A stretch of DNA of 64,000 nt from an uncultured Kordia sp. (lineage in GTDB: Bacteria; Bacteroidota; Bacteroidia; Flavobacteriales; Flavobacteriaceae), in contig NZ_CANLEA010000004.1 of NCBI RefSeq assembly GCF_947489565.1, positions 248,001-312,000 of the forward strand. The letters run 5' to 3'. The notes below the pieces were generated by a model that searched no databases, was not told the DNA's origin, and was given only the letters and a program-made list of their open reading frames with translations. Each line of letters opens with the position of its first letter. The stretch's first letter is position 1. The position numbers were made by a program, and so were the translations under genes. Shown here piece by piece: positions 14,742 through 37,117 of this stretch.

Positions 14742-14761
14742 GATGTAAAATTCCAATTCTT

Positions 14762-15018: not shown

Positions 15019-15375
15019 TTACCTTTTGAAAAACATTCTAAATAAGAAATAAAAAAAAGCTATTGCAATAACAAAACTAAAAACTTGTGATAAAATATTA
15101 CCTATCACAATATCAAATCTATCTGTATATTGTAATACCATAACTAGTATAGAAAGAATACATAATCCAATCTTAAGATTGTTATTGCTTTTTTTAAGGA
15201 ACATATATAAAATTAATAGTATAATAGCTCCTGCTCCATATGGAACGGTATGAGTATATATCATTCTTAAAAAAATTAGTACAATTACTACTTTAGTAAT
15301 ATTGTCTGCTTTTTTTATTGTTTTCACACTTACTCTGCCAAACATAATACTTTTAATTTCTGGATTTCTTGTCAT
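15019..15375 (-). CDS. Small multi-pass membrane protein, function unknown
   Basis: 118 aa with about four hydrophobic helices (for example ITKVVIVLIFLRMIYTH, GAGAIILLILYMFL, IGLCILSILVMVLQY, FSFVIAIAFFYFLFRMFF) and a basic end (FKR). It overlaps the end of the preceding gene by 23 nt; a start at the internal Met (15345) would remove the overlap and keep all helices. It resembles no family I recognise. It is the third gene of a trio led by the TPR protein and would be an inner-membrane component. Confidence 0.65.
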   Translation of the reverse strand: MTRNPEIKSIMFGRVSVKTIKKADNITKVVIVLIFLRMIYTHTVPYGAGAIILLILYMFLKKSNNNLKIGLCILSILVMVLQYTDRFDIVIGNILSQVFSFVIAIAFFYFLFRMFFKR

Positions 15376-16015: not shown

Positions 16016-16844
16016 TGTCGTGGTTTTTATGGTGGTTATTTTTAGTAAATAGTAAATCTTCGTATTCAATATTTAGTAATCTACATAGACGTTGTAATTC
16101 TGAAATATTTTTTTCCAAACGATCTACAGCTTGTAATTCGATTACTTTTTCTCTTACTTGCAAACCTCTTCTTTTAAAAAAGTCTTCATGTATTAAATGC
16201 TTTAAGCGATAATATTTTGACTTTTTGTCATTTATAGATATAGACATATCTACATCTTCTAAAATTTCTATGATTTCGTTAAAATGTAATCGGAAAGGGT
16301 GTTTCCCTTTAAATTTTGATAATGCTAGGTTGTAGTAATATTCGTCACTTGTAGGATTTAATTCTATAGCTTTTTTAAAACATATTATTGCTGCATCAAA
16401 TCGTTTTCTTTCCATTAATAGCACTCCTAGCCAGAAAAAAATTGAGTCATTATTAATATTTTCTTGACTCTTTTTAGATAAATCTGCTATGTACTTACTT
16501 ACTTCTAATTTGGTTAGTTTGGATATAAGTTTATATGATAAATCACTAATACGAATTTCTGATTTATATTTTTGAACAAAAGCTTCGTAAGTATCAAATC
16601 CAATATAATTACAGAGTAATTTTATTGTCAATTCCTTTATCTGATAATTTTCTTTGCTACCATTAATATATTTATTGTAGACTCTATTGAGTGTTTTAGC
16701 TGAAACTCCAGAACTAGGTATATTTTCGTCTATCCAATTACTAACAAAAACGCACATTCCATTAACACTGTAATTGATCACATTAGCTTCAGCTATCTTA
16801 AATGCCTCTTTTACTATCTCTTTTATAATACTATCTGTGTCCAT
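15990..16844 (-). CDS. TPR-repeat protein with N-terminal helical (HTH-like) region
   Basis: 284 aa. The N-terminal 95 residues are helical and include SAKTLNRVYNKYINGSKEN, which reads like the recognition part of a helix-turn-helix. From about 125 come TPR motifs (NNDSIFFWLGVLLMERKRFD, IICFKKAIELNPTSDEYYYN). The C-terminus is a charged coiled coil ending LLNIEYEDLLFTKN. First gene of a three-gene operon. Its promoter carries the palindrome shared with the Ter operon, and the -7 box lies only 4 nt before the ATG, which predicts a leaderless transcript. It could be a sensor or regulator; not proven. Confidence 0.7.
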   Translation of the reverse strand: MDTDSIIKEIVKEAFKIAEANVINYSVNGMCVFVSNWIDENIPSSGVSAKTLNRVYNKYINGSKENYQIKELTIKLLCNYIGFDTYEAFVQKYKSEIRISDLSYKLISKLTKLEVSKYIADLSKKSQENINNDSIFFWLGVLLMERKRFDAAIICFKKAIELNPTSDEYYYNLALSKFKGKHPFRLHFNEIIEILEDVDMSISINDKKSKYYRLKHLIHEDFFKRRGLQVREKVIELQAVDRLEKNISELQRLCRLLNIEYEDLLFTKNNHHKNHDNDIKWKED

Positions 16845-16848
16845 ATTA

Positions 16849-16892
16849 CAAACATAATATCAAAAGAGAGTATATAATTATGGAAATCCATA
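16849..16892 (-). promoter_or_regulatory. Island-type promoter: palindrome + 22 bp + -7 box (TPR operon)
   Basis: Read on the minus strand: TATGGATTTCCATA (16892-16879), 22 nt, then TATGTTTG (16856-16849), a perfect TAnnTTTG. The same palindrome and spacing occur at 23397-23440 and 30414-30457. The palindrome sits just upstream of the -33 position, as an activator site would. Confidence 0.78.
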
Positions 16893-17235
16893 ATAATCAT
16901 ACTCAAAATATTTTATGCTTTTCAGCTATTCATGACTTGTTATACGGACATCAAGATCATTAAAAATCTCTACGAACACTAAAGTGTCCAACCTGTCCAT
17001 AAGCTGTCCATAAGCTGGACATTAAATTCATTCTTATATCTATTTCTTTGTTTCGAACATTGATAGTTACGTATGATCAATCGTAACAATACTAAGCTTA
17101 GTATCAATACTTGTTTTGATTGAAATCTCTGTGGAGGAGACAAAGAAAGATTTCTAAACAAGATACCCTTCTCAAATATCCAAAGCGCTTTGGAATTATT
17201 TAACAACTCGCCTTAAAAAAGGTGATAGGAAACTT
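16893..17235. promoter_or_regulatory. Palindrome-rich intergenic region between divergent operons
   Basis: 343 bp without a gene. It holds an 11-bp tandem repeat CTGTCCATAAG at 16993-17003 and 17004-17014; an inverted repeat GTTACG-N10-CGTAAC at 17066-17087; a perfect palindrome ATACTAAGCTTAGTAT at 17089-17104; and a perfect palindrome CCAAAGCGCTTTGG at 17180-17193, which lies 43 bp before the lipoprotein gene. These are likely regulator sites for the rightward genes, but no promoter box stands out. Confidence 0.55.
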
Positions 17236-17508
17236 ATGTCAAATTTTAAAAAATTAAAAATTATGAATTTATCAATATATATATCAAAAAAGAATGTATT
17301 AGGACTTGTAGCTGTCGTAATGATAACAATGAACACAAGCTGCACAAAAGAACCATTAAACGAATATGACGACGATTGTCAAACACATGAAGTTTATGAA
17401 TGTGACCATACTGACGATGATGGATGCTGTCCCATTCACTGTGGTTATACAGCTATTGAAGGAGAAGATCCAAAAATTGATCCAGATGATGATGATGATA
17501 ATGAATAA
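17236..17508 (+). CDS. Small Cys-rich acidic lipoprotein
   Basis: 90 aa (81 if the in-frame ATG at 17263 is used). A hydrophobic segment LGLVAVVMITMNTSC ends in a lipobox Cys. The mature part has six or so cysteines in a short span (DDDCQTHEVYECDHTDDDGC, CPIHCGYT) and ends in a run of Asp/Glu (DPDDDDDNE). The acidic tail and Asp-rich middle could bind Ca or another cation; this is inference. It lies 42 bp before a TPR histidine kinase gene on the same strand and may be its signal partner. No family recognised. Confidence 0.65.
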   Translation: MSNFKKLKIMNLSIYISKKNVLGLVAVVMITMNTSCTKEPLNEYDDDCQTHEVYECDHTDDDGCCPIHCGYTAIEGEDPKIDPDDDDDNE

Positions 17509-17550
17509 ATAGTCATTTTTCAATTCAAAAAAAATGGTAACTTTAGAGGG

Positions 17551-19509
17551 ATGAAAATAAAATTTTACATTTTATCGTCCCTCTTTCTTTTAGCTATAAC
17601 ACTATTTTTCTTTCAAAAGGGTAGTATTATACAAAATAGCTCAAAGGATAGTTCTAGGAAACAAGCAGACAGTTTGAGTGTATACTACCAAGAAAATATT
17701 AGAAAATTAGATACTATCACTGGTTCTATAGGAATTGTTGATGATTTTATTGAAACTACAATATTACTCAATATAGATACTCTAAAATATAAAGCATATA
17801 ATATAAAAATAAAATTACTAGAAAAATATAGAAAGTATAATGAAGCTAAGAAAGTTGCTGAAAAGTTATTGGAAATTGCAAAAGATGAAAACGCCAAAAA
17901 ATATATTGCAAAATCTTCATACAAGCTTGGAAAGCTTTACAAAAAAGATAAAAACCTTGTAGCTACCTTTTCTTATTTTAATGAATCTTTTAAAGCATCT
18001 AGAGATTTAAAGGATACTGTATTAGCTAGAAGAAGACTTTTGTCGATGGCAAATATTCAAAAAGAATTGGGAGGCTATCACGTTAGCAATATTATTGCAA
18101 CAGATGGATTGAAAAATTTTGACAGCCCGAAAGATTTAAAAACAAAGTTAGGTTTATTACATTCTATATCTACTTCACTAAGAGAGCTCACAAATTACAA
18201 AGAAGCACTAAACTGGAATGCCAAAGCACTAAATTTTGCAAAAAAGAATTCTGAAATATACTCTGAAGTGTTTAAAACTAAAATTACTAAGGCAAATATA
18301 AATGCTGACATTAAAGAATTTGATGCAAGTATTTTAATTTATGAAGAGTTACTCCAAGATTCTATAGCTACTAAGAACATTCTTGAATATGCTCGTTTAT
18401 TGAGTAATTTAGGTTTTGTAAAATGGAAAAGAGGTGATAATATTCATGAAATACAAAAACTACTCTTAAAAGCATTAGATATAAGGATTACTGAAGAAGA
18501 TTTATCTGGACTCGTCGCAAGTCACACACATCTTTCAAAATTTTATGCAAAGTCAAATCCTGAGAAAGCTTTATATCATGCCGAAGAAGCTTATACAAAT
18601 GCAAAAAAAATATTCAATAAGGTAGAAACACTCAATGCTTTGGATTTAATTACCGCTTTAGATACAACTGCTTTAGATAAATTATTAGAGTATAAAGTTA
18701 TTAGTCAACAACTAGAAGAAGCTAGAAAAGAAATTCGTCAAATTTATGCTCCTACACGATTTCAAAATGAAAAATTAGCAACTGAAGCGGCAGAAAAAGA
18801 ATTAAAAATAAAAGAGCAAAAAAAGAAAACTTTTTGGATTATCATTATGGCATTAATCGTTTTATTTGGCGCAATTGCATTTTTCACACAAAGAAGTAAA
18901 ACGATAAAAGAACGTACAAAAAAGGAGAAGATTCAAGCTGTATACGAGGTAGAAAATAAAATTTCAAAAAAAGTACACGACCATATCGCCAATGATATTC
19001 ACCTTATTAAAATGCTGATAACAAATAATGAAGATGAGGCTAAAATTCTTGATAAATTGAATATTATATATAACAGTGCTAGAGATATTTCTAGAGATAA
19101 CAGTCATATTGATTTTAAGCATTATACAGAACATTTACAAGATCGCATCCGTAATTATATCACAAATGATGTAAAAGTATTTGATAGAGGCATTGAAACA
19201 ATTCCTTGGGAGAAAGTTAGTACTATTAAAAAAATAGTTGTCTACAAAGTAGTTAAAGAATTGATGGTAAATATGCAGAAACATAGCTGTGCAAAACTAG
19301 TAAGTCTAATTTTTAGTTACGATGCTCCTAAGATATCCATCACATATACAGATGATGGCGTTGGTTTTTTAAAAAAAACAAACAAGAATAAAAAAAATGG
19401 CCTCATGATTATGGAAAACCTTATTAAGAGCATTAATGGAACAATTACATTTGAATTAGATAGAGAAAAAGGAATAAAAGTAATTATTAAGATTCCTAGT
19501 ACTGATTAA
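17551..19509 (+). CDS. TPR-containing sensor histidine kinase
   Basis: 652 aa. A membrane anchor/signal (about 5-22) is followed by a periplasmic TPR array (about 65-380), a coiled coil, a membrane helix FWIIIMALIVLFGAIAFF (about 430-447) and a cytoplasmic kinase. The H-box is KVHDHIANDIHLIKML (phospho-His at about 473), of the NarX/DesK-like HisKA_3 type. The ATPase part has N-box KELMVNMQKHS, DDGVGF and NGLMIMENLIKSINGTI. The partner response regulator starts 20 nt downstream. Bacteroidetes have many such TPR kinases; the ligand is unknown. Its place in the island makes it a candidate controller of the island promoters. Confidence 0.87.
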   Translation: MKIKFYILSSLFLLAITLFFFQKGSIIQNSSKDSSRKQADSLSVYYQENIRKLDTITGSIGIVDDFIETTILLNIDTLKYKAYNIKIKLLEKYRKYNEAKKVAEKLLEIAKDENAKKYIAKSSYKLGKLYKKDKNLVATFSYFNESFKASRDLKDTVLARRRLLSMANIQKELGGYHVSNIIATDGLKNFDSPKDLKTKLGLLHSISTSLRELTNYKEALNWNAKALNFAKKNSEIYSEVFKTKITKANINADIKEFDASILIYEELLQDSIATKNILEYARLLSNLGFVKWKRGDNIHEIQKLLLKALDIRITEEDLSGLVASHTHLSKFYAKSNPEKALYHAEEAYTNAKKIFNKVETLNALDLITALDTTALDKLLEYKVISQQLEEARKEIRQIYAPTRFQNEKLATEAAEKELKIKEQKKKTFWIIIMALIVLFGAIAFFTQRSKTIKERTKKEKIQAVYEVENKISKKVHDHIANDIHLIKMLITNNEDEAKILDKLNIIYNSARDISRDNSHIDFKHYTEHLQDRIRNYITNDVKVFDRGIETIPWEKVSTIKKIVVYKVVKELMVNMQKHSCAKLVSLIFSYDAPKISITYTDDGVGFLKKTNKNKKNGLMIMENLIKSINGTITFELDREKGIKVIIKIPSTD

Positions 19510-19529
19510 TATTCAAAAATACACTTTAT

Positions 19530-20204
19530 ATGTTCAAAAAAATTTTAGTCGTTGAAGACATAGAGATTGCAAACTATGGCATTATTAAAATATTAGTAGA
19601 TAAAAAAATTATATTAAAAACAGGAATTATACATACACAGTATTGTGATAAAGCTTTTGTTATGTTCAAAGAAGCTATGCAGAAAAAAGATCCGTTTGAT
19701 TTGGTAATTACTGATTTATCTTTTGAAAGGAATTATTGGAATGAGGATATTGCTTCTGGTTTAGAGCTCATAAAAAAAATACGAAATATTCAATCGAGTA
19801 TTAAAGTAATTGTGTATTCTATAGAAAATAAAATTTCAAAGATAAATTCATTATTTAGTGATCAAAAAATTAATGGCTTTGTAGCTAAGGATGGTTATGA
19901 TGCTAAAGAATTAGTGAATGCTGTAAGAGAAGTATATACAGGTAAAATCTATAAGCCAACTCAACTACAAAATATATTAGATCAAAAAAAGGCAATGGAA
20001 TTAACTGATTACCAGAAAATTTTAATTGAAAAGTTATTAGAAGGTTTATCGCAAAGAGAAGTACAACAGTACTTTAAAAAACATAATATCACTCCGAATA
20101 GTATTAGTATTATTGAAAAAAGAATAGAAAAATTAAAAATTGACTTTAATGCAAATAATACACTACATCTTATTGCTATTTTAAAAGATTTTGGACTGAT
20201 TTAA
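19530..20204 (+). CDS. Response regulator, NarL/LuxR-like with a divergent DNA-binding domain
   Basis: 224 aa. Receiver domain about 1-130: KILVVEDIEIANYG with the acidic pocket, phospho-Asp in DLVITDLSF (about 55), and Lys in GFVAKDGYD. The C-terminal part (about 150-224) has TDYQKILIEKLLEGLSQREV and NSISIIEKRIEKLKIDFN, which follows the layout of a LuxR-type HTH (ELIxLxxxGxxxxEI...VxxHxxxIxxKL) but with a weak match at the recognition helix. Partner of the TPR histidine kinase upstream, and convergent with the DUF4407 gene. Confidence 0.85.
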   Translation: MFKKILVVEDIEIANYGIIKILVDKKIILKTGIIHTQYCDKAFVMFKEAMQKKDPFDLVITDLSFERNYWNEDIASGLELIKKIRNIQSSIKVIVYSIENKISKINSLFSDQKINGFVAKDGYDAKELVNAVREVYTGKIYKPTQLQNILDQKKAMELTDYQKILIEKLLEGLSQREVQQYFKKHNITPNSISIIEKRIEKLKIDFNANNTLHLIAILKDFGLI

Positions 20205-20287
20205 TCGTTTCTTTGAAAAAATATATTAAACAAATTCAAAATTTCTTCTCTTAAACATTTATAAATGCTAGCATAGCATAATTGATT

Positions 20288-21703
20288 TTACTTTTTAAAT
20301 TGCTCCCTTGCTTCTTTAGAGTTTTTATAAAAAATAAACTTTACATCATTTAGCATTTCTTTGTCTTCCTTTTGAATTTCTTCATCTACATTATTTCTCT
20401 TGTTTATTTTTTCTAAATTATCAAAATAAAAATCAGCAAATTTTTGATGATCCTTACATAGTTTTTTATTGAATTTTTGTGCTGAGTCTAATAATAAAGA
20501 AATCATTTTCTCGCGTTGCTTTGCTTTTTCTTCCACAAATAATTGCTCTTTATAGATGTCATGTGCATATTGAGCATAATATTGTTTTTCAGCATTTCTC
20601 TTCATTGTCTCCATATTTTTTAATCTAAACCAAGAACTCGAAGACTGTAAATGTAATTCATCTAATTTATCATCATAACTTCCTCTTTTCACCAGGACTT
20701 TTAACATTACAGCAACAACATCGATTATAAAAAATACAAGTATGATAAATAAAGAAGTTATCCAAACTGTACTTGGATTTTTCTCTGCTAGTTTACCATA
20801 CAAAGCATTTTCTTTTGCTAAATAATCGTTAGAAAAGTTATTCTTCAATTCTTCAATTTCAATTCTTTGCAAACTATCAAATTCTCGAAGTTTTTTGTTA
20901 TTCTGAAATTCTGTCAAAGTACGCAAACTATCAGAGCGTATTATTTCTGCATTTAGTACATTTAGTATGGATTGACTTTCCTGCTTTAGAGCATCCAATT
21001 CATTTATTAAGATATTTATTTGATCTTGGATAGCCTTCGTTCTTGGACCGTATCTAAGTTTCCCAGAAGATTCACCACAAGGCAATGAAATTTTAGCCCC
21101 TGACTGTTCTGCTGTTAGTAAACGTCTTTTGCAATCTATTAATGCCTGTTTATCTATAATTTGCTGATTTCTATTAGTTATACGAGTTTGAACATCAGAC
21201 CTATCTGTTCTGAATACTTCAATTCGTTCTTTATTGGAGACTACTAATTCATTTCTTTCAATCTTGGATACAGAATCTTTTTCCTTTACACTTAATAAAA
21301 GATCTTCTTTCAAAGCTTGATTGATACTATCATCAAAATAGAACAATACAAACGGATGTGATAATGCAAATCCTAAAATAGAAGCCATAATCAATCGCAA
21401 TATAAATGAACGACTAAACAAATCTTCTTTTATCGTTTCACCTTTTCTAAACGTACTTAAAATAAAACGATCTATGGAAAATATGATCCCACTCATAATG
21501 AGTCCAGATAAAATAATGAAGAAATAATTATCTGTAAGTGTTGATATTGCGTACGACATGGATACAAAAGCTAGAATCGCCGGAATACAGATTAAGACTC
21601 CATATCCGGCGTGTTTTACTCTTTCAGAATGCGAGCATTCATCTAATATATTTGTATCTGAGCCAGCACACCAAATAAAAAAATGGTAGCAATAATTTTT
21701 CAT
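20288..21703 (-). CDS. DUF4407-type membrane protein with long coiled coil
   Basis: 471 aa. Four membrane helices: a pair near 30-85 (GVLICIPAILAFVSMSYAIS; FFIILSGLIMSGIIFSIDRF), one at about 107-125 (LIMASILGFALSHPFVLFYF), and one near 315-335 (VWITSLFIILVFFIIDVVAV). Between the third and fourth is a coiled coil of nearly 200 residues, and the C-terminus is charged. The opening FFIWCAGSDTNILDECSHSE fits DUF4407 as I remember it. Fourth gene of a run that starts with the zinc-ribbon protein or the Gly-rich membrane protein. Role unknown; a membrane anchor or mechanical sensor for the Ter system is an inference. Confidence 0.8.
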   Translation of the reverse strand: MKNYCYHFFIWCAGSDTNILDECSHSERVKHAGYGVLICIPAILAFVSMSYAISTLTDNYFFIILSGLIMSGIIFSIDRFILSTFRKGETIKEDLFSRSFILRLIMASILGFALSHPFVLFYFDDSINQALKEDLLLSVKEKDSVSKIERNELVVSNKERIEVFRTDRSDVQTRITNRNQQIIDKQALIDCKRRLLTAEQSGAKISLPCGESSGKLRYGPRTKAIQDQINILINELDALKQESQSILNVLNAEIIRSDSLRTLTEFQNNKKLREFDSLQRIEIEELKNNFSNDYLAKENALYGKLAEKNPSTVWITSLFIILVFFIIDVVAVMLKVLVKRGSYDDKLDELHLQSSSSWFRLKNMETMKRNAEKQYYAQYAHDIYKEQLFVEEKAKQREKMISLLLDSAQKFNKKLCKDHQKFADFYFDNLEKINKRNNVDEEIQKEDKEMLNDVKFIFYKNSKEAREQFKK

Positions 21704-21718
21704 GTTTTGAATTTGATT

Positions 21719-22303
21719 TTACCTAGAAATTTTACGTTCAATTTGTGATAGTTGTTCTTTAATACTTTCTAGTGCTGTTTGACCAGCATCCCTATAGCTT
21801 TTTCTTAATTCAACTAAATCATCAATCATTTCTTTTCGCAATTCGTCATCTTCAGCATATTTAGCATTGAAGTTTTTTTTCTTTTGAATATAATAATCGC
21901 TAAACTCTTCTCTTGCATCAGTAATTTTCATTTTTAGCTTTGATAGCTTCTCGAGCATTTTTTGTACATCTTCTGCTTTATGTTTAAATAAATCCTGTAC
22001 CAATATTGATTTAGCTCTATTTTCTAAAGAAGTTATGACTACATCGTTTATAATTTCTTCAGCTCTATTTACCAGACTAAAATGCCTTTGCGTTTGAATT
22101 AATCGTTGATCTTTGGCTACTTGAATTAGTTGTTTTTGTGTAAACATGCGCTGCATTAAATTCCAATCATCTTTATCAATAAGTGATTGTATTTTATTAG
22201 CTTTTTTGCCATGCATTTTTGTTAGAAAAGATATATAATCATCTTTATCTTCAAATCGTTTTGGTAATTCATTACCTGCGTCCATTATTGTAACATCACT
22301 CAT
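21719..22303 (-). CDS. Coiled-coil cytosolic protein, Ter-island satellite
   Basis: 194 aa, almost wholly helical and highly charged (for example LIQVAKDQRLIQTQRHFSLV; KAEDVQKMLEKLSKLKMKIT), with no signal peptide or membrane helix. It ends 15 nt before the DUF4407 gene, which also has a long coiled coil; direct pairing of the two is plausible. No family recognised. Confidence 0.68.
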   Translation of the reverse strand: MSDVTIMDAGNELPKRFEDKDDYISFLTKMHGKKANKIQSLIDKDDWNLMQRMFTQKQLIQVAKDQRLIQTQRHFSLVNRAEEIINDVVITSLENRAKSILVQDLFKHKAEDVQKMLEKLSKLKMKITDAREEFSDYYIQKKKNFNAKYAEDDELRKEMIDDLVELRKSYRDAGQTALESIKEQLSQIERKISR

Positions 22304-22331
22304 TTGTAAAAGTTTTAATAATTTTTATTAT

Positions 22332-22706
22332 TTACTCTAATTTATCACCATCCGGCGTATAAATTCCATCATCCTTAAAGTCTAAAATATATTTACCTCC
22401 GAAAGATTTTAATGTGCTTAAATAGTTTTTAAAAGTTTTACAGACATTGATCGCTATATTTTCATTATTCTGTAATACCTCTATATTTTGCGTAGTTAAT
22501 GAACGACCATTAATCATATCTTGAATTGTAATCCTGTCTCCTCTGTCATTAGTCATCAATGTTTCATCCTCAACTTTATATTTTTTAATTAATTTTTGTT
22601 CATCCTCCGTCAATTGTACTCTATATGTAAGAGAAAAATTAACGCCTTTATTTCCTCCGAAAAAACCTTTTTTATCTGCTTGATTCTTACTTATTACTAA
22701 TTTCAT
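22332..22706 (-). CDS. Small cytosolic protein, Ter-island satellite
   Basis: 124 aa, MKLVISKNQADKKGFFGGNK at the start, a beta-rich first part (VNFSLTYRVQLTEDEQKLIK), then helices and a C-terminal beta hairpin (GGKYILDFKDDGIYTPDGDK). No signal peptide. The genes downstream follow with short gaps, so it belongs to the same transcript as the coiled-coil and DUF4407 proteins. Function unknown. Confidence 0.66.
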   Translation of the reverse strand: MKLVISKNQADKKGFFGGNKGVNFSLTYRVQLTEDEQKLIKKYKVEDETLMTNDRGDRITIQDMINGRSLTTQNIEVLQNNENIAINVCKTFKNYLSTLKSFGGKYILDFKDDGIYTPDGDKLE

Positions 22707-22826
22707 TTTTTTTAAATTTATTTGTGATTTTCTTTATATACATGATATTACACCTTGTTCTTTTACAAATTGACACATGTATTATTATTTTATTTCAACT
22801 ATTACAATACAGTAACTTTTCTTCAT

Positions 22827-22967
22827 TCACTGTAAATTTTCAATTAACAAATGACTTACTTCTTGATATTGAGCTGAAGTCCAAGAATGATTTCCTCCTT
22901 TTGGGCAATTATTGTTTAGTGGTGGACTTGTTACTACCTGACCACATTTACTACATTTCCATTTCAT
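22827..22967 (-). CDS. 46-aa zinc-ribbon microprotein
   Basis: MKWKCSKCGQVVTSPPLNNN then CPKGGNHSW and a helical tail ending LIENLQ. The CxxC plus a later C and H (C5, C8, C21, H27) look like a one-metal zinc ribbon. The ATG at 22967 and stop at 22827 enclose 46 codons. It lies in line with the satellite genes downstream (120-nt gap) and 136 nt after the Gly-rich membrane protein gene. The coding call rests on the clear metal-binding motif. Confidence 0.65.
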   Translation of the reverse strand: MKWKCSKCGQVVTSPPLNNNCPKGGNHSWTSAQYQEVSHLLIENLQ

Positions 22968-23103
22968 GATTTATTGTTAAATAATGCATACTCTTCTTAG
23001 GATTTTCTGCGAACTCCTTATTTATATATCTTTTATTGATAGTATATAAGCTATTGAATGACCCATCTAATAATTTACACTTAAACACCTACCAGTAAAT
23101 ACA

Positions 23104-23376
23104 TTACGAAAATAGACCTAGTAGAGCTTCAAATATATTTGAAATCAATTCTCGACGAAGAACTATAATTATAACTCCTATTACGAAAAATATAATTCTA
23201 GCTACAATACTTTCCAATACTGAACCAATGATTACGCCAATAATGAATCCTATAACCCCGCCGACCCAATGGTTGTTTGTGAAGTCTAACCCTAAAAATA
23301 AACCTGCGATACCAACGATAAAAGTTACTATTCCTCCTAAATGATATTCTTTGTCCTGTGTGTTGTTTTGTGTCAT
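23104..23376 (-). CDS. Small Gly-rich multi-pass membrane protein
   Basis: 90 aa, polar N-terminus (MTQNNTQDKEYHLGG) and three hydrophobic segments rich in Gly, Ile and Val (IVTFIVGIAGLFLGLDF; VGGVIGFIIGVIIGSVL; IIFFVIGVIIIVL). The glycine spacing suggests tightly packed helices, like glycine-zipper proteins. Its promoter carries the same palindrome as the Ter operon. It is likely the first gene of the transcript that leads to the DUF4407 protein. Function unknown. Confidence 0.7.
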   Translation of the reverse strand: MTQNNTQDKEYHLGGIVTFIVGIAGLFLGLDFTNNHWVGGVIGFIIGVIIGSVLESIVARIIFFVIGVIIIVLRRELISNIFEALLGLFS

Positions 23377-23396
23377 GATTGTTATTTATTTTTAAA

Positions 23397-23440
23397 TAAA
23401 TGTATACAATCAACTACATAGTAAATTATGGAATTCCATA
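23397..23440 (-). promoter_or_regulatory. Island-type promoter: palindrome + 22 bp + -7 box (Gly-rich membrane protein operon)
   Basis: Read on the minus strand: perfect palindrome TATGGAATTCCATA (23440-23427), 22 nt, then TACATTTA (23404-23397), seven of eight positions of TAnnTTTG. The gene starts 20 nt further on. Confidence 0.78.
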
Positions 23441-23535
23441 AATGAAATGAAGAAAATTAAACGTAGGCATATACATGTTTTAGTTTAACTGTTTACAAAG
23501 ATCTAAATAGATTTAAAACAGTTATTAATATGAAT

Positions 23536-23826
23536 TTACCATTCATTAATTTGTCTAGTTATTTCTGAATCTCGCGACCTTCCTTGAACATATAAGATGA
23601 ATACGACATATATAAGAAGCAGCAAAATGTACTTCCTGCAGTAGTACCAATACTTCCTTTTAAAACAAATAAAAAGAATAATGCAGTAAAAAAACTCTGG
23701 CGTTGAAGAACTAATTGCATTTATAGTTGCTCCACGAGGTGCTTTGCTTAAGTTTCTACCTAAATATTCAGAAATTGTTTTAAATCCATTAGTTGCTCCG
23801 TCATATGACAAGGCTTCAAAAAATTA
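23536..23826 (-). pseudogene. Fragment of a sodium/calcium antiporter-like gene
   Basis: One frame reads GFKTISEYLGRNLSKAPRGA then TINAISSSTPEFF; after a one-base shift in a T run the next frame reads TALFFLFVLKGSIGTTAGST. Joined, these match the first alpha-repeat region of Ca2+/cation antiporters (GATxxAxxSSxPExx). The rest of the protein is missing. It lies between the kinase gene and the small membrane protein operon. TerD proteins bind Ca2+, so a lost Ca2+ transporter here makes sense, but that is inference. Confidence 0.62.
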
Positions 23827-23848
23827 TTAATAGTATTGATAGATTTCT

Positions 23849-25366
23849 TTAGTTAGTTATAGTAACGGTTACTACTCTACCTGATTTTTCATTTGATAGT
23901 AAAATCTTATTTCCATCAATAAGTTCTATAGATTCTCCTTTGTTTACAATCTTATTATTTGTGACATCTTTTAAATACGGAAGCCTTTCATTAATAAGCA
24001 ACCATTTAGTATTGTGATATGCAAAATAACCTACACGTAATTTATCATCACTTGTCAATTTTTCATTTCTAATAACATCTCTACTTACATGCCATGCATG
24101 TAATGTGGTATTATTATATACAACTAACCGCATATTTTCTGGCTTCCAAATATTAGGTTTAAATTGATAAAAGAAATCTAATACTGGAATTGAGTTCTTA
24201 TAAGTTGTTCCGCAAAATGGACACTTGGTAACTTTGGTATTATTGTATATAAACCATTGTTGATCACAAGAATTATTACTGCATTTTAGTTTTAAATCAT
24301 TTGTTTTGATCAATGCTTCTTCCCACATAACTGCTGGTGGTCTTTCTTTAGGGTTATGAAGTCCTTTTATAAAAGCTTGGTCAAATAATTTTTTCAAATA
24401 TGGTCCTGTAATTAAATAAGGGGTTGTCTTAAGGTCTGTCCATGGATAAAATTTCTTTTCGTTATCTCCATATTCTCTTTTGAAATTTCTATTGCTCGCA
24501 TCTGTTGGGTGTTCTATGAATAAAGCTTTGGATCCCATTAATAAATCTTCTTCTTCATCTGAATCTAAAGCACCAAAATAGTTTCCTCCTCGCAATGGAT
24601 GTCTGTATAGCAAATACATATAAATTAGTACTGCCAACGCATGTAAATCTGTTAGTCGATTTGGTAGTTTTCTTTTTGGATCATTTACAGGTAAATGTTT
24701 TGTCGAAAAAACTTCAGGAGCTATAAAGTCAGCAGTACCAATAACATCAGGAGGATATAAGCCAGGAACTACCAAGCCATCAATATCAATAATGGCAGCT
24801 TTTTTACTGACTGGATCTATGAGTACATTTTTATAAGATAAATCTGAGTGTGCTAATCCTGCAGAATGCATTCTTTTTACGCCTCTGGAAATATTTACAC
24901 AAACTTGAAAATAGCTTAACCAATTCCCTAATTCTGATTTATCTAATTTCAATCTTGATTTTCCTGTTCGGAATTTAGCACTTGAAAACCATTTACCATC
25001 TTTTTCCTTCCCTTTTAATAAATCATTGTCTTGATACCCTTTTTTAAAAAAGAAGTTTTTTGAATAACAAGGAACAATAATACCTATTTTATCATTTTCT
25101 TGAATTACGTCCGTTGGCCAGGAATACAATTCTTTATAATAATTGCCTCCTTCTCTTTTAAAAAAACTATCAAAATATTTTGTAACAATGTTTTTTAATC
25201 TATCAATAGAGTTGGCATCTTGTTTATCTCTATATATTGCTACTACATAAGATTTATCTGGGCTAAAATATACATCTTTCATCCCACCTCGCATCGGGTC
25301 ACCATTATCAACATAATAGTATTCTTTTGTAGTATCGATTATAGATTTTACTGTTTTGGTATTCAT
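23849..25366 (-). CDS. Ser/Thr-type protein kinase with C-terminal zinc ribbon (TerY-P triad kinase)
   Basis: 505 aa. Kinase fold about 15-350: Gly-rich start DPMRGGMKDVYF, catalytic loop HSDLSYKNVLID (Asp and Asn present), metal-binding DIDG (about 195) and substrate-region DVIGTADFIAPEVF. After about 365 comes a zinc ribbon (CSNNSCDQQWF, CPFCGTTYKNS), then a beta-rich C-terminal domain. In Ter systems a kinase, a PP2C phosphatase and a TerY-like VWA protein form a conserved triad; here the kinase starts 11 nt after the PP2C gene. It is likely the last intact gene of the Ter operon. Confidence 0.86.
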   Translation of the reverse strand: MNTKTVKSIIDTTKEYYYVDNGDPMRGGMKDVYFSPDKSYVVAIYRDKQDANSIDRLKNIVTKYFDSFFKREGGNYYKELYSWPTDVIQENDKIGIIVPCYSKNFFFKKGYQDNDLLKGKEKDGKWFSSAKFRTGKSRLKLDKSELGNWLSYFQVCVNISRGVKRMHSAGLAHSDLSYKNVLIDPVSKKAAIIDIDGLVVPGLYPPDVIGTADFIAPEVFSTKHLPVNDPKRKLPNRLTDLHALAVLIYMYLLYRHPLRGGNYFGALDSDEEEDLLMGSKALFIEHPTDASNRNFKREYGDNEKKFYPWTDLKTTPYLITGPYLKKLFDQAFIKGLHNPKERPPAVMWEEALIKTNDLKLKCSNNSCDQQWFIYNNTKVTKCPFCGTTYKNSIPVLDFFYQFKPNIWKPENMRLVVYNNTTLHAWHVSRDVIRNEKLTSDDKLRVGYFAYHNTKWLLINERLPYLKDVTNNKIVNKGESIELIDGNKILLSNEKSGRVVTVTITN

Positions 25367-25377
25367 CTGCCTTACTT

Positions 25378-26832
25378 TTAAAAAATTATAGCTAATGTTC
25401 TATCATCATGATTACCTTTACTCCAGAAGTCCATCCAGTTATTAAGATTTTCTTCGAGTTGATTAAGATCTCTACTAAAATCTAATGTTACATTGTCTTC
25501 GTTTCTCCCTTCTAAATCTGCTATAAATTCAAGCCATTTTTCTGTTTTTTCCAAATTAGCTTCTACAATAAATTTTGCATCATAAATACCATCTGTCATC
25601 AAAAATAGGAATGAAAAATCTTCTGTTATATATACATTAAACCTTGATACAATGGGTCTTTCTTTAGAACTAAATATTTCTCTATTTGTAATAAATCGAG
25701 TACCGCCTCCATATTTACCAATATCTAACCAATTTAGAAGTTTAGCTTCCGTTCTGTCTTTATTGATGATTCCAATAGGGCAGTCACCTACTCCAAAACT
25801 TAGAAACACATATTTATTATTGATTTTTTTAAAAGCAATAAAAATTAGAGTTGCATGAAAATAATCTGCTTTATTTAAAATTTTTGTTTTATCAAATGCT
25901 TTGGGAGATTCTAATGCGGTTTCACTAGCTATTTTTTCAATTTCAGTATGCGCATGCACTGCTACTTTATAAATGGCCTTAATTGCTGTTTCCTTTGCTT
26001 GTTCAAGTTGCTTTCCTTCTTTTAAATCAATAAACTGATTGAATTCTTCTTCAAAAAGTTCCAATTCTTTTATAGCTACATTTTCAAAACACTTAATAGT
26101 TTCTGAACATGCAATTTCAGATCCTTTTCTAGAGAATTTTGCACTCCCAGCTCCATCAGAAACGGCGACAATTGTCCATTCGGAATCTTCAAAGTATTTA
26201 AAAGCATAATCATCGTCTCTAAAACTTCCGACATTTTTATGGGATCGGCCTCTCTTCGAGGAAACTACGATAGATTTCTCTCCAATTTTGGTTGCCTCAG
26301 ATTTATCATCTTCTTTCCAAAACAAAGCATTAGTGTCACTCGGAATATCTTTCCATAATGATTTTGGGTCAGGATTAATAAGAAGTTTTACTTGTTTTTG
26401 ATGTTTTATTTCTGAAGCTTCTTCTCCATCAACTAAAAATTCTATAGTAAAAAAATCATCTAATTTCACTTCTGGCGTACCTTCAATGGTCATTGTGTCT
26501 TGGTTATAAGTAAGGTTGAACTTATCTAAGTCAACACAATTCATTTTAATCAAATTATTTTTTTCTAAAAAATTATGAGGAAAAGTGTATATGTACGGTA
26601 CTTTTTCTGTTCCATTATCTGTAGATATTCCGTTATTTTTAAATGCAGTTACTAGTGTTTGTATCTTCCATTTTTTCATAATTTCAGTTTCTAATTCGAC
26701 TATTGAGGTGTAGATTTCATGTACTTTTTCATCTTTCATAAAATCGTTAACCATGAGGCTTATCTTTTCTGGTTGTTTTTTGGTAGATGAAAAGCATATC
26801 CTTTGTATGTAATTTTTATATTCATTTTTCAT
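25378..26832 (-). CDS. PP2C-family protein phosphatase (TerY-P triad)
   Basis: About 484 aa from MKNEYKNYIQRICFSS. A longer frame opens at 26895, but its first 21 codons overlap the preceding VWA gene and the internal ATG at 26832 lies one base after that gene's stop. The N-terminal 200 residues are an unknown mixed domain. The PP2C core has GSFRDDDYAFKYF, VAVSDGAGSAKFSRKGSEIA (metal-binding DG), FGVGDCPIGI and FLMTDGIYDAKF, with a final Asp region NEDNVTLDF. It presumably reverses the action of the neighbouring kinase. Confidence 0.88.
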   Translation of the reverse strand: MKNEYKNYIQRICFSSTKKQPEKISLMVNDFMKDEKVHEIYTSIVELETEIMKKWKIQTLVTAFKNNGISTDNGTEKVPYIYTFPHNFLEKNNLIKMNCVDLDKFNLTYNQDTMTIEGTPEVKLDDFFTIEFLVDGEEASEIKHQKQVKLLINPDPKSLWKDIPSDTNALFWKEDDKSEATKIGEKSIVVSSKRGRSHKNVGSFRDDDYAFKYFEDSEWTIVAVSDGAGSAKFSRKGSEIACSETIKCFENVAIKELELFEEEFNQFIDLKEGKQLEQAKETAIKAIYKVAVHAHTEIEKIASETALESPKAFDKTKILNKADYFHATLIFIAFKKINNKYVFLSFGVGDCPIGIINKDRTEAKLLNWLDIGKYGGGTRFITNREIFSSKERPIVSRFNVYITEDFSFLFLMTDGIYDAKFIVEANLEKTEKWLEFIADLEGRNEDNVTLDFSRDLNQLEENLNNWMDFWSKGNHDDRTLAIIF

Positions 26833-26833
26833 T

Positions 26834-27886
26834 TTATCCTTGTTTTCTGTTGACTTTAAAATTATCTGAATATGTATATTCAGCTGTGTTCCCACAACTT
26901 GGGCATGTATTTAACTTCTCTTGACCGATACAATGAATTTGCCCGCAGTAACAAAAGGCAAAACCTGTCTGATTTCCACAACTTGGACACGATGGAAACC
27001 CTACAAGTTCGTCAGTATTAACTTGATGTTTTTTTTGAGAAACTTTAGATAATTTATCATACATATCATCTACTAAAAATGTTCCTATTAATTGATAGGA
27101 TTTGGTCTTTAATGGAATCCCCGCAAACTTTTTACTTTTAAAATTCTTTTTATATTTTATTAAATATTTCTCTTTTGTGTTTTGACATTTACCTTCTAAC
27201 ACTACAAAATTATTATCTGCTTTTTTATTTGAATTATACTCTTTTTTAGATAGGTCAATTTTTTCAAGATGCTCTTTATGCAAAGTATCTAGCTCAAATG
27301 CATTTTCACATTTTTCTATGTTTTGACTATTCGTCTTGATTGAATCAGTCACCCATTTGAAAAACACTTTATAGCTGTTTATATCATTATCTTTAAACAA
27401 TAATACATTATCTGTTAGTTGACCTAAAACATTTTTATCTGCACCACTTCCGAGTGAAATCGCTATCATATTTGCCATATTCCGCCATTTTATATTCCAT
27501 GCATTTATGGCTTTACTACTATCATCTGTTGGCACGCCATCAGTGAATAAAAATATAATAGGCTTCCAATCCCCTTTTTTCTCTCGAGTTGTTTTTACTA
27601 AATCTGTATCAAGTGTTGTTATTAAATGTTCTATGCCATATCCTAATGATGTTCCACTTCCAATAGGGAATTTTGGTGGATAAAAACTAATGATATCTTG
27701 TAATGGAATAATTGTCTTTGCTTTCCCTGCAAATACAATGATAGAAATCCATACAGTTTCTAGTGCAACAGGATTTGTTTTTAGTTCTCGTATAATAGAT
27801 TCTATTCCTTTTTCTACGTTTGCAATTGGGTTTCCAATCATAGATTCTGAAACATCTATTAAGAAATAAATGGGTAGTCTTCTCAT
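26834..27886 (-). CDS. TerY-like VWA protein with C-terminal zinc ribbons
   Basis: 350 aa. VWA domain 1-200 with the metal-ion site (MIDAS) DVSESM (DxSxS) at about 10, and FTDGVPTDD. From about 295 come zinc ribbons: CPSCGNQTGFAFCYCGQIHC and CPSCGNTAEY. This is the longest of three VWA proteins in the operon and has the TerY-C-like tail. It is followed directly by the PP2C and kinase genes, the layout of the TerY-P triad. The VWA domain probably joins TerD-type proteins to the kinase and phosphatase. Confidence 0.9.
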   Translation of the reverse strand: MRRLPIYFLIDVSESMIGNPIANVEKGIESIIRELKTNPVALETVWISIIVFAGKAKTIIPLQDIISFYPPKFPIGSGTSLGYGIEHLITTLDTDLVKTTREKKGDWKPIIFLFTDGVPTDDSSKAINAWNIKWRNMANMIAISLGSGADKNVLGQLTDNVLLFKDNDINSYKVFFKWVTDSIKTNSQNIEKCENAFELDTLHKEHLEKIDLSKKEYNSNKKADNNFVVLEGKCQNTKEKYLIKYKKNFKSKKFAGIPLKTKSYQLIGTFLVDDMYDKLSKVSQKKHQVNTDELVGFPSCPSCGNQTGFAFCYCGQIHCIGQEKLNTCPSCGNTAEYTYSDNFKVNRKQG

Positions 27887-27917
27887 TAACTTTTGATTTT
27901 AGGTGTTCATATTTGAT

Positions 27918-28553
27918 TTAGATAACAATAATGTCTTCTGAAGGCGGTGGTGGTAATTGTATCTTATCAGTAGTACCAATACTTTTATTTCCATGTTCTA
28001 TGGTTTCAGAAACCCATGAGAAAAATTGTTTTAACGTATTACTATCAGTAGTTTCTAGGCGAATCACATCATCTGTAAGCCTTTTTAATTTGGAAACATC
28101 TGCTGTATTTCCTGCTGCACAACCAACAATAACTGCAAAATTTAATTTCTTAACCTTAGGGATGAACTCATTATACTTTTGAATATCTGATGGTTTTCCA
28201 TCTGTAAATAAAAATAGTAATGGTTTCCAGTCTCCTTTTTGTTCTGGAGTACCTACTTTAATATCGTTTTTTACATTTTTACATAAAAATTCTAATGCTT
28301 TTCCTGTAAAAGTTGGTCCGCTTTGTGGGCAGGTAATTTCAGGTAATTGAAATGATTGTAAATCCGTTAACGGTAAAATCTCTTTTACTTCTCTATTAAA
28401 AGTAATAATACTAATCCAGAGTGTTTCAGAAGCTTGTGCATCTGCTCTTAATGTATTGATCATACCACTTAAAGCATTATTCAAAGAAACGATAGGTTCT
28501 CCGAACATAGAACCAGATGTATCCAACAAAAAATAAACAGGAAGTCTTCTCAT
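27918..28553 (-). CDS. TerY-like VWA protein
   Basis: 211 aa, single VWA domain: MRRLPVYFLLDTSGSMFGEP with an intact MIDAS (DTSGS), FTFTDGKPSD-type second motif (FLFTDGKPSDIQKYN) and LPPPPSEDIIVI at the C-terminus. The Pro-rich tail is shared with the next VWA gene and may be a docking site. Seventeen nt separate it from the upstream VWA gene. Cytosolic. Confidence 0.92.
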   Translation of the reverse strand: MRRLPVYFLLDTSGSMFGEPIVSLNNALSGMINTLRADAQASETLWISIITFNREVKEILPLTDLQSFQLPEITCPQSGPTFTGKALEFLCKNVKNDIKVGTPEQKGDWKPLLFLFTDGKPSDIQKYNEFIPKVKKLNFAVIVGCAAGNTADVSKLKRLTDDVIRLETTDSNTLKQFFSWVSETIEHGNKSIGTTDKIQLPPPPSEDIIVI

Positions 28554-28570
28554 TTTTTTATGCGTAAATG

Positions 28571-29209
28571 TTATACAACTATATTTAATTCAGAAGGCGG
28601 CGGCGGTAATTCATTCAGCCCAGATGCTTCTTGCCCTGCTTCTTCAACTTTTGTAGATGATGTACTAATAGAAGCCGTTACCCATGCAAAGAATTTAGCA
28701 ATACTCTGACTATCAGCAGTATCTAAGCTTACCACATTTTCTGTAATTTTCTTTAAGACATTTGTATCTGCTCCACTTCCAGCAGCACAGGCTACGACTA
28801 CAGCTGTTCTTCTTTTGTTTAATTCATTCAAACCATTTTGTAAACTATCTGTAGGCATACCATCAGTCATAATAAAAATCATTGGTTTCCAATCTCCCTT
28901 GCTTTCTGCTGTTGTTTTAGCTACTTCATTGTCTATACAGTTACTTACAACACTTAAGGCTTGTCCCATAGCTGTTACTCCGGTGGCTCGAATATCTGGG
29001 ATTTGAAATGTTGTCAAATCTGTTAAGGGAACTATTTGCTGTGCTGTACTATTAAAAGTAATAACACTTAAAAACGCTGTTTCTATTGCTTGCGGATTCT
29101 GTCTCAATGAATTAACCATCACTTGAATTCCGTTTCTTACAGCTTCAATTGGTTCTCCGATCATGGAGCCTGATGTATCTAATAAAAGGTATACTGGAAG
29201 TCTTCTCAT
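28571..29209 (-). CDS. TerY-like VWA protein
   Basis: 212 aa, single VWA domain: MRRLPVYLLLDTSGSMIGEP, MIDAS intact, MTDGMPTDSLQNGLN, and tail NELPPPPSELNIVV. Nearly the same build as the following VWA gene, so the two arose by duplication. Its ATG shares one base with the TAA stop of the TerD gene upstream (TAATG), so they are translationally coupled. Confidence 0.93.
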   Translation of the reverse strand: MRRLPVYLLLDTSGSMIGEPIEAVRNGIQVMVNSLRQNPQAIETAFLSVITFNSTAQQIVPLTDLTTFQIPDIRATGVTAMGQALSVVSNCIDNEVAKTTAESKGDWKPMIFIMTDGMPTDSLQNGLNELNKRRTAVVVACAAGSGADTNVLKKITENVVSLDTADSQSIAKFFAWVTASISTSSTKVEEAGQEASGLNELPPPPSELNIVV

Positions 29210-29817
29210 TATATGTATTTTTTAATTATTGTGCTTATTGTTTCTTCTAAATTTCTGTCTCTAGTTGGGTCTCCTATTGCATTAAATTTCCATTCACCAT
29301 TTCTCTTGTATAATTTCCCCATTACCATAGAAACATAACCTCTGAAGCTAGAATCGGTAGCGATATCATAGGTAGCCACTACATTTTGAACATGTTCAGG
29401 AGTTCCTTCATATAATCTAATTGCTGCAAACGGTACCGATGCAAAATCTTGCTGTTGGAAACTATTTAAAAAGAATACTATTTTATCTACGTTTATTGCT
29501 ACTTTTGATAGATTCACAGAAATAATTTCATTATCCAAGCCATCATCTCCATCCTCGTCTCCTGTCAAATCATCTCCGCTATGGATAATAGATCTGTCGT
29601 CCGATTGTAATCTGCCGAAATAAACTTTTTCCAAAAGATTGTTATTGGCATCAAATAAAGCACAGCTTGCATCTAGGTCTACTGCTACTTTTTTGGTACT
29701 TAAAAACCCTTTTTTTATAATCATTCCCCAATTGACACCTACGCAAAAACTAGTTAGTTTTTCTCCTGATGATTTTCGAAGATCAATCTTTTGTCCTTTT
29801 GCCAAATTAATTGCCAT
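29209..29817 (-). CDS. TerD-family protein
   Basis: 202 aa. Begins MAINLAKGQKIDLRKSSGEK as typical TerD members do. The central part VDLDASCALFDANNNL holds the first acidic block; DDLTGDEDGDDGLDNEIISV holds the Ca2+-binding Asp/Glu cluster; and GEWKFNAIGDPTRDRNLEET closes the fold. TerD domains bind Ca2+ and act in tellurite, phage and stress resistance clusters. Thirteen nt after the other TerD gene. Confidence 0.93.
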   Translation of the reverse strand: MAINLAKGQKIDLRKSSGEKLTSFCVGVNWGMIIKKGFLSTKKVAVDLDASCALFDANNNLLEKVYFGRLQSDDRSIIHSGDDLTGDEDGDDGLDNEIISVNLSKVAINVDKIVFFLNSFQQQDFASVPFAAIRLYEGTPEHVQNVVATYDIATDSSFRGYVSMVMGKLYKRNGEWKFNAIGDPTRDRNLEETISTIIKKYI

Positions 29818-29830
29818 ACTTTTATTTTTA

Positions 29831-30385
29831 TTAGTTATACTTATTCACAAAATCCTGCATATCACTTTTTGTCCCTATTCCTATAGCTTCAAATTTCCAT
29901 TCATTATTCCGTTTATAAATTCTTCCAAATTCAATAGCTGTTTCCACAGAAAAATCTTCATCCAACTCAAATTTCATAATCTCTGTGTTTGTATTATTAT
30001 CAACGATTCTCACAAATGCATTGCGCACTTGTCCAAAATTTTGACTTCTAGATTGCCAATCATGAATGGTCACAATAATGAGTAGTTCTTCTGCTTTGGG
30101 GTCTATTTTAGAGAAATCGACTAGAAGTGATTCATCATCACCATCGCCATCTCCTGTTAAGTTATCTCCTGTATGCTCTACAGCTCCATCAGGAGATTTT
30201 AAGTTGTTATAAAATATTAGATATTCGTCTGAAATTAACTTTTTATTCGTCCCAAGAATAAAAATACAAGCATCTAAATCAAAGTCTAGACCTGTTGCTG
30301 ATTCATTCGTGTCCCATCCGAGACCAATTGTAAATTTCTCTGTAGACAATGCTTCTCTTTGTCCTTTTTGTAAATTGATAGCCAT
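29831..30385 (-). CDS. TerD-family protein (TerE/TerZ-like)
   Basis: 184 aa, usual length. Starts MAINLQKGQREAL; acidic blocks GLDFDLDACIFIL and DNLTGDGDGDDESLLVDF carry the Ca2+ ligands; ends with the family segment RNNEWKFEAIGIGTKSDMQD. Closer to the canonical TerD/E/Z length than the 202-aa paralogue. First gene of the Ter operon, with a promoter of the island type upstream. Confidence 0.94.
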   Translation of the reverse strand: MAINLQKGQREALSTEKFTIGLGWDTNESATGLDFDLDACIFILGTNKKLISDEYLIFYNNLKSPDGAVEHTGDNLTGDGDGDDESLLVDFSKIDPKAEELLIIVTIHDWQSRSQNFGQVRNAFVRIVDNNTNTEIMKFELDEDFSVETAIEFGRIYKRNNEWKFEAIGIGTKSDMQDFVNKYN

Positions 30386-30413
30386 ATGAGTTTTTTATTT
30401 TTTACTTACTTCA

Positions 30414-30457
30414 CAAAGCTAAATTCATCGTCTTAATAAAAATTATGGAATTCCATA
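30414..30457 (-). promoter_or_regulatory. Island-type promoter: palindrome + 22 bp + -7 box (Ter operon)
   Basis: Read on the minus strand: perfect palindrome TATGGAATTCCATA (30457-30444), 22 nt, then TAGCTTTG (30421-30414), a perfect TAnnTTTG. The first TerD gene starts 28 nt after the box. Confidence 0.82.
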
Positions 30458-36368: not shown

Positions 36369-36377
36369 GATTTTCGG

Positions 36378-37115: not shown

Positions 37116-37117
37116 AC

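Follow-up and report, generated by a model that had tools for sequence, protein, structure and literature searches.

A palindrome at a fixed 22-nt distance from the −7 box in a Kordia Ter island and the response regulator that may bind it

Introduction

A transcription activator whose binding site is centered at −41.5 occupies the class II position. The Gac/Rsm system of Pseudomonas acts through small RNAs and RsmA. It has been described as a coordinator of antiphage and antibacterial defense, with the speculation that comparable pathways could still be found in other phyla (PMC11888443). For ComA of Bacillus, a NarL/FixJ-type regulator, the operator consensus is TTGCGGNNNNCCGCAA (PMC3793909). 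In Flavobacterium psychrophilum, promoters have a TAnnTTTG box at −12 to −5 (PMC9723704). A survey of nucleoside triphosphate (NTP)-dependent conflict systems describes the DO-GTPase and GAP1 families and names no histidine-kinase domains among the vWA-associated effectors; the word "promoter" was not found in its main text (PMC7159879). In this study, we analyzed a 64,000-nucleotide stretch of the genome of an uncultured Kordia sp. (hereafter the window, to which coordinates refer unless a locus is named), in which three operons, one of them carrying Ter genes, are preceded by the same 14-bp palindrome. Very probably these palindromes, together with a fourth copy inside a histidine kinase gene, are operators at which the island's own NarL/FixJ-type response regulator (19530–20204) activates transcription as a class II activator. 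No description of this operator or regulon was found in the titles and abstract openings of the top-ranked literature results, a coverage outside which most subscription journals lie. Loci, genomes, and contigs are designated by our own L, G, and C numbers.

Results

Four sites at a fixed distance from a −7 box

The initial annotation of the window had reported a palindrome 22 nt from the −7 box at three promoters, and direct reading of the sequence confirmed both the positions and the spacing. Each copy of the motif TATGGA(WW)TCCATA (A, B, and C) lies upstream of a TAnnTTT box, and the operons to which they point are all on the minus strand. Copies B and C are perfect palindromes; copy A, read from 16892 to 16879, is symmetric at 12 of 14 positions (center TT/AA). 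The annotation missed a fourth site, D, on the plus strand; the regulator gene has its own copy of the arrangement. Site D is imperfect and departs from TATGGNNNNCCATA at one position and from TATGGAWWTCCATA at two. The putative operators and their boxes, all read directly, are as follows.

16879..16892, minus strand: putative operator A, TATGGATTTCCATA, of the tetratricopeptide repeat (TPR) operon, whose −7 box follows after 22 nt; the genome has just two other places of this kind
16849..16856, minus strand: −7 box of the TPR operon, TATGTTTG
23427..23440, minus strand: putative operator B, TATGGAATTCCATA, of the operon for a Gly-rich membrane protein and a DUF4407 protein
23397..23404, minus strand: −7 box of operon B, TACATTTA, 22 nt from operator B
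30444..30457, minus strand: putative operator C, TATGGAATTCCATA, of the Ter operon
30414..30421, minus strand: −7 box of the Ter operon, TAGCTTTG, 22 nt from operator C
19410..19423, plus strand: putative operator D, TATGGAAAACCTTA, in the 3′-terminal part of the kinase gene, immediately ahead of the response regulator gene; relatives have a site at the same position
19446..19453, plus strand: −7 box, TACATTTG, 22 nt 3′ of operator D

In the whole genome (6,423,034 bases), TATGGAWWTCCATA occurs at exactly three places, all in a 13.6-kb stretch, and its reversed control pattern at none. The palindrome is not common genome-wide; all three exact places are in the island, and all have the 22-nt box. 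When up to two mismatches to TATGGNNNNCCATA were allowed, followed by 22 nt and TAnnTT(T/G), exactly four places in the window matched, A through D. Random sequences of the window's length (first-order Markov, 40 runs) contained a mean of 0.0 perfect palindromes and a mean of 0.325 sites with up to two mismatches to TATGGNNNNCCATA, 22 nt, and TAnnTTT; from base composition, TAnnTTT is expected at any given offset with a probability of about 0.5%. At up to three mismatches and without the box, the palindrome is unremarkable (30 matches in the window, 20.4 expected). These runs bore out the claim that the same spacing three times is improbable by chance. Recent duplication of one DNA segment, or chance, could be invoked for three promoters that all lie within 13.6 kb, but this explanation is scarcely credible, because spacers and flanks differ outside the palindrome and box, the arrangement recurs in other genera, and random sequences fail to give it.

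The candidate regulator and the genes of the island

Three genes lie between the three operons, on the opposite strand:

17236..17508, plus strand: putative lipoprotein of 90 aa (by eye), first gene of the lipoprotein-kinase-regulator unit; the core paralog unit (L064) has a small gene in the corresponding position
17551..19509, plus strand: histidine kinase with TPR repeats (TPR_12, HATPase_c), 47% identical to the kinase of the K. aestuariivivens island
19530..20204, plus strand: response regulator of the NarL/FixJ type (receiver domain, structure model, PDB profile search), the proposed binder and activator

The response regulator, which the annotation had singled out for binding assays, is the best candidate, and its relatives are of the NarL/FixJ type. 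Pfam matched only its receiver domain (Response_reg, E 3.4e-8) and no helix-turn-helix model. D10, D62, and K120 are invariant across 45 regulator sequences, as in an N-terminal receiver with a phospho-acceptor Asp. A profile of these 45 relatives, compared with the PDB sequences, found RcsB, VraR, DesR, NarL, and DevR, and the matches to RcsB, VraR, and NarL reach into the C-terminal part of the regulator. The structure model (predicted local distance difference test score 92, predicted template modeling score 0.70) consists of a receiver and a C-terminal helical domain with helices at 160–170, 175–184, 192–205, and 211–220.

The operons behind operators A, B, and C contain the following genes.

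15990..16844, minus strand: TPR protein, first gene behind operator A; relatives stand behind like sites in L009, L031, and L047
15353..16069, minus strand: second gene behind operator A, for a protein with an NGRKI-NYF-like start, 46–53% identical in L009, L031, and L047; its true start probably lies inside this open reading frame (ORF)
15019..15375, minus strand: small membrane protein (by eye), third behind operator A; weak match in L010 (24%, E 7.8e-5)
23104..23376, minus strand: Gly-rich small membrane protein (by eye) behind operator B, without a Pfam match
22332..22706, minus strand: ORF of operon B, protein without assigned function
21719..22303, minus strand: ORF of operon B, protein without assigned function
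20288..21703, minus strand: DUF4407 protein of operon B (E 3.4e-52)
29831..30385, minus strand: TerD-domain protein, first gene behind operator C (E 6e-70)
29209..29817, minus strand: TerD-domain protein of operon C (domain match)
28571..29209, minus strand: vWA protein of operon C (domain match)
27918..28553, minus strand: vWA protein of operon C (domain match)
26834..27886, minus strand: protein of operon C with vWA and TerY_C (domain match)
25378..26895, minus strand: PP2C phosphatase of operon C (domain match)
23849..25366, minus strand: protein kinase of operon C (domain match)

Operon C confirmed the TerD/TerY-type Ter cargo, in which TerD proteins stand side by side with vWA/TerY_C, PP2C, and kinase genes. 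If the boxes are placed at −12 to −5, as in F. psychrophilum (PMC9723704), the palindromes would span −48 to −35, and it is this placement that puts their center at about −41.5. On the same assumption, transcription of the TPR gene is predicted to start at 16844, the A of its ATG, so that the message would be leaderless. The predicted start of the operator D promoter is 19458, 72 nt before the regulator ATG, and those behind operators B and C would be about 23392 and 30409.

Elsewhere in the window, 12450–14756 is a single long ORF with glycosyltransferase, radical SAM, and SPASM domains, 11050–12456 is an ORF with nucleotidyltransferase and tyrosine-phosphatase parts, and a trio of methyltransferase, nucleotidyltransferase, and AAA kinase-like genes (35613–37696) lies near the Ter genes.

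Codon use in the kinase-internal site

Site D was considered first as a coding coincidence, because a fixed spacing in the protein could give 22 nt; the codon test demoted that explanation to a rival. Around kinase 3′ ends, 60 distinct boxes were read, and the 51 that encode ENR are all NNG-GAA-AAC-CGY (CGT in 42, CGC in 9). In ORFs of at least 400 codons from the same loci, AAC makes up 29% of Asn codons, and CGT plus CGC 33% of Arg codons. The nine remaining boxes comprise three ENL with CTT (the window, K. aestuariivivens, and Tenacibaculum), three ESR with TCC, and two ETR with ACC, all eight of which keep the CC of the palindrome, and that of the distant kinase L086, which reads AGT AGA and has no palindrome. 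Ten distant Kordia kinases (L076, L083–L087, L089–L092) lack the palindrome, with TCGAGA in eight, TCACGC in one, and AGTAGA in one; because they encode KSR or ESR, they are not a pure codon control. In the 10 Kordia kinase orthologs, codons are invariant at 12 of the 14 invariant degenerate residues in 619–635, a stretch picked after looking, vs. 22 of 135 elsewhere (p = 2.3e-7).

It is unlikely, although the protein gives it some ground, that operator D is mere coding sequence of a conserved ATPase motif without a promoter. The site encodes (M/A/T/V)ENR or ENL, and 22 nt further on comes a conserved xF(D/E)-like stretch, so that protein spacing alone would fix the distance. Against this, every ENR box is written with AAC and CGY, both minority choices, and has a codon ending in G ahead of GAA, S or T replacements keep the palindrome, the ten distant kinases have a readable box without one, and codon invariance peaks in this stretch. 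The simplest reading is that the kinase-internal copy serves as operator and promoter for the regulator gene, sharing its codons with the catalytic motif.

Related cassettes in other genomes

TATGGAWWTCCATA was present in three of 11 Kordia genomes: three times in that of the window, once in K. aestuariivivens (G001), and once in G010, where it is part of an ORF and has no 22-nt box. The K. aestuariivivens island has an orthologous regulator (62% identical) and kinase (47%), two TPR genes, and a different cargo, which includes DO-GTPase and GAP1 genes; the Ter proteins of the window had no match seen in the two 20-kb stretches of this genome. Its TPR genes are preceded by TATGGAAATCCATA-22-TATATTCG (perfect) and TATGGAAACTCATA-22-TACATTTG (two changes). 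An integrase-like gene is nearby, and RadC-like genes lie on both sides (by reading). Adjoining the island is a gene for a 1086-aa protein, preceded at L009 5355–5368 by TACGTATTTCCGTA, 22 nt, and TATTTTTA.

Aureisphaera and Tenacibaculum also have cassettes with these control genes and similar sites at 22 nt; in Tenacibaculum the cargo is a DO-GTPase and the regulator is cut by the contig end. Pfam identified two Hsp70 genes behind the control genes of the Aureisphaera cassette (L031 1–5010), and a third, truncated one was recognized by eye. Among 17 regulator loci examined in one contig scan, several, not all, have TAYGGNNNNCCRTA-type sites with a 22-nt box near the regulator. A search of 397 family genomes for TATGGANNTCCATA, 21–23 nt, and TANNTTTG matched two, the window's genome (two of its three sites) and G082 (one site, spacing 21); the control matched one. 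An isoleucine in SIIEKR, in the putative recognition helix, was considered as the determinant of the TATGG preference and dropped, because Aureisphaera shares it and has TACGG operon sites.

The TACGG-N4-CCGTA sites

The genome of the window encodes a second regulator, on contig C34, that is 43% identical to that of the island, and a third, remote match (25%). The kinase beside the C34 regulator (the core kinase) has clear orthologs in 10 of the 11 Kordia genomes; the match in G008, the exception, is remote (3.5e-21). In these genomes TACGGN4CCGTA occurs at 118 places and the reversed pattern at 14, with 9–27 sites in each of nine genomes, four in G010, and one in G008, which lacks the core kinase ortholog. 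By our own ORF calls, 67 of the first 75 sites are intergenic. All sites except that of G008 were read (117), and TAnnTTT was found 31 times at 22 nt and 8 times at 23 nt, compared with a mean of 1.8 and a maximum of 7 at the remaining 58 distances in the range 0–59. When TAnnTTG and TAnnnTTG were also accepted, 54 of the 117 sites had a box at 22 nt.

A gene for an 83-aa protein without assigned function (start like MSKNVYILRER) was matched in 10 of the 11 Kordia genomes and not in G008. In each of the ten, a TACGG site lies 27–69 bp before the predicted ORF start (L119, L135, L152, L179, L184, L102, L060, L266, L280, and L288), and in five a second, homologous gene adjoins the first.

For a family-wide test, 120 Flavobacteriaceae genomes were divided by the presence of the regulator (E up to 1e-25). 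The 48 genomes with it contain 209 sites (control 161) in 180 Mb, and the 72 without it 64 sites (control 183) in 214.5 Mb. Sites are more numerous where the regulator is present (Mann-Whitney p = 2.6e-12, or 1.0e-4 on site minus control), although these p values overstate independence because the genomes are related. For genomes of at least 2.6 Mb, control counts do not differ (p = 0.42), whereas site counts do (p = 1.2e-9). The family-wide signal is the contrast with the genomes that lack the regulator (64 vs. 183).

Because the palindrome with its 22-nt arrangement travels across genomes with the kinase and regulator gene family, the dedicated regulator predicted by the annotation gained support. 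Another island protein, such as the TPR protein (15990–16844), might instead bind the palindrome, the kinase and regulator being merely linked to it. A TPR relative does stand behind one site in all four cassettes compared (the window, L009, L031, and L047), and the N-terminal region of the TPR protein has a relative in a divergent 133-aa protein of the core unit. We nevertheless consider such a binder very unlikely, because the family-wide site counts follow the regulator gene, dozens of loci have a copy of the site within the kinase gene, immediately ahead of the regulator, and the K. aestuariivivens TPR proteins have an apparently different N terminus (by eye) with the same site.

If the regulator is the binder, it would more readily act as an activator. 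The distance from site to box is fixed at 22 nt at all four window sites, and the 117 TACGG sites peak at 22. It is this rigid spacing in dozens of promoters, together with a position near −41.5, that favors activation, as the annotation had proposed; the site, however, abuts or overlaps the −33 place and does not lie clearly upstream of it, as the annotation had it. A site abutting the −33 place could block polymerase, so that the regulator might bind as a repressor, with the operons released upon its dephosphorylation. Repressor sites usually vary in position. One preferred spacing in dozens of promoters suggests contact with polymerase instead, and repression has in our view little chance of being correct.

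Putative target genes

Where a TACGG site has a good box at a spacing of 22 or 23 nt, the first gene behind it is in some cases a relative of GajA (Gabija), ThsB (Thoeris), DndC, QatA, or LmuA (Lamassu). Further putative targets are relatives of the R and M subunits of type I restriction systems, of HNH ABC-3C and PD-Lambda-5 proteins, and of two reverse-transcriptase-associated proteins, SLATT and MBL, the latter with a UG9-type reverse transcriptase after it; another is a HATPase protein that resembles type II restriction models. Many others are putative lipoproteins or have no assigned function.

Sites were scored as strict when five or six of the six fixed TAnnTTTG letters were present at 22 or 23 nt. 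In the first set (L113–L187), all 38 first genes were scanned with PADLOC and six matched (E up to 1e-8), all among the 10 picked by eye and none among the other 28. In the second set (17 plus 25 further sites), 22 were strict; seven of their 22 first genes, picked by eye, were scanned, and six matched. Over both sets, 12 of 60 strict sites gave a defense match, on the basis of 45 scanned first genes. At L262, a strict site of the second set, the 462 bp to the gene exceed the 450 bp allowed in the first. The count excludes L268, which matched (subtilase, E 5.8e-17) but is not strict, and L132 (only 1.4e-4). For a random control, 40 regions were drawn, four had no gene, and one overlapping duplicate was dropped from the 36 genes picked, leaving 35 to scan. 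Here 22 families matched one member each, by reading two or three proteins, one of them probably a housekeeping RecQ helicase. The enrichment is borderline (Fisher p 0.05 vs. 2 of 35, or 0.12 vs. 3 of 35), and these values are only indicative because genes were picked by eye. A strong claim of defense enrichment was therefore dropped; a defense regulon is plausible, not established.

Discussion

The genomes establish the sites, their spacing, their co-occurrence with the regulator gene, the codon-level conservation in the kinase, and the family of the regulator. Binding, phosphorylation, activation, insulation, and a signal are the steps that we infer from them. In the proposed mechanism, the kinase (17551–19509), perhaps informed by the small lipoprotein encoded before it, would phosphorylate the regulator, and a regulator dimer would bind TATGG-N4-CCATA at about −48 to −35. 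The bound dimer would then recruit the sigma-A RNA polymerase to the TAnnTTT box exactly 22 nt downstream, in class II fashion. The units switched on would be the operons of the TPR protein, of the DUF4407 protein, and of the Ter/vWA/PP2C/kinase genes, and, through the kinase-internal promoter, the regulator gene itself. The island regulator may be a diverged copy of a widespread Flavobacteriaceae regulator whose operator is TACGG-N4-CCGTA with the same spacing, and the one-letter change in the half-site (TACGG to TATGG) could keep two circuits apart in one cell. As judged from sequence, the rule of regulator, operator, and spacing connects the Ter island with a regulatory system found across the family, of which the island regulator appears to be a TATGG-type member.

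Several observations weigh against this interpretation. No box was found at 22 nt, even by the loosest definition, in 63 of the 117 TACGG sites, and the 209 sites pooled from the 48 regulator-bearing genomes only modestly exceed their reversed control. Two loci have no row in the box reading: in L045 a putative operator stands a comparable distance away, apparently past the kinase end, and lacks a 22-nt box, and L212 has only a decayed copy. The similarity among kinase-internal copies is partly protein constraint, because they overlap a conserved protein motif. With only two of 397 family genomes matching, the TATGG form is rare. The Aureisphaera regulator is 63% identical to that of the window, yet its operon sites are TACGG, so that the specificity shift is not fixed in the clade; no residue was found that explains it.

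A broader picture has, we think, about even chances. It is that a danger-response two-component system of Flavobacteriaceae may switch on scattered antiphage defense genes and accessory lipoproteins through a portable promoter module (TACGG-N4-CCGTA, 22 nt, TAnnTTT); a feedback operator would occupy catalytic codons in the gene of the system's kinase. Copies of the cassette, re-tuned to TATGG in Kordia, would be carried by conflict islands (Ter, GTPase, Hsp70), with the cargo swapped and the control kept.

The analysis names a candidate regulator, operator, and spacing rule for a Ter island whose control was unassigned, and it provides a promoter signature that can be searched for in flavobacterial genomes. 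If the broader picture is true, it would offer a direct route to list and test a coordinated defense regulon outside Pseudomonas, defense genes without known function could be found by their operator, and there would be a case in which to study a regulatory DNA site and a catalytic motif that share codons.

The systems closest to this one each resemble it in part. Bacteroidota sigma-A promoters (PMC9723704) have the same TAnnTTTG box at −12 to −5; here an upstream operator is added, and neither "palindrom-" nor "response regulator" was found in the main text of that paper. The NTP-dependent conflict systems (PMC7159879) are like the islands in cargo, with a DO-GTPase in two relatives, GAP1 in one, and vWA and TerD in the window, and differ in that a conserved kinase-regulator cassette with putative operators is added here.

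ComA resembles the island regulator in having a receiver and, as the model of the latter predicts, a C-terminal helical domain that may be of the DNA-binding type; the putative operator is likewise a palindrome with a GG-N4-CC core (PMC3793909), and three kinase-internal sites read ATGCGGAAAACCGCAT (L039, L041, and L044). In contrast to ComA, the half-sites here are mostly TAYGG or TGCGG, at a fixed 22 nt from a Bacteroidota −7 box, and one putative operator is buried in the catalytic-domain codons of the cognate kinase. Instead of the ComA-type TTGCGG-N4-CCGCAA, the window sites read TATGG-N4-CCATA and those of the relatives TAYGG or TGYGG, and the system would work like that of ComA without being a member of it.

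With Gac/Rsm (PMC11888443) the likeness would be a two-component system with an unlinked defense regulon that includes Gabija. The system described here belongs to another phylum and has a putative direct operator in each promoter; the proposed resemblance is one of function only.

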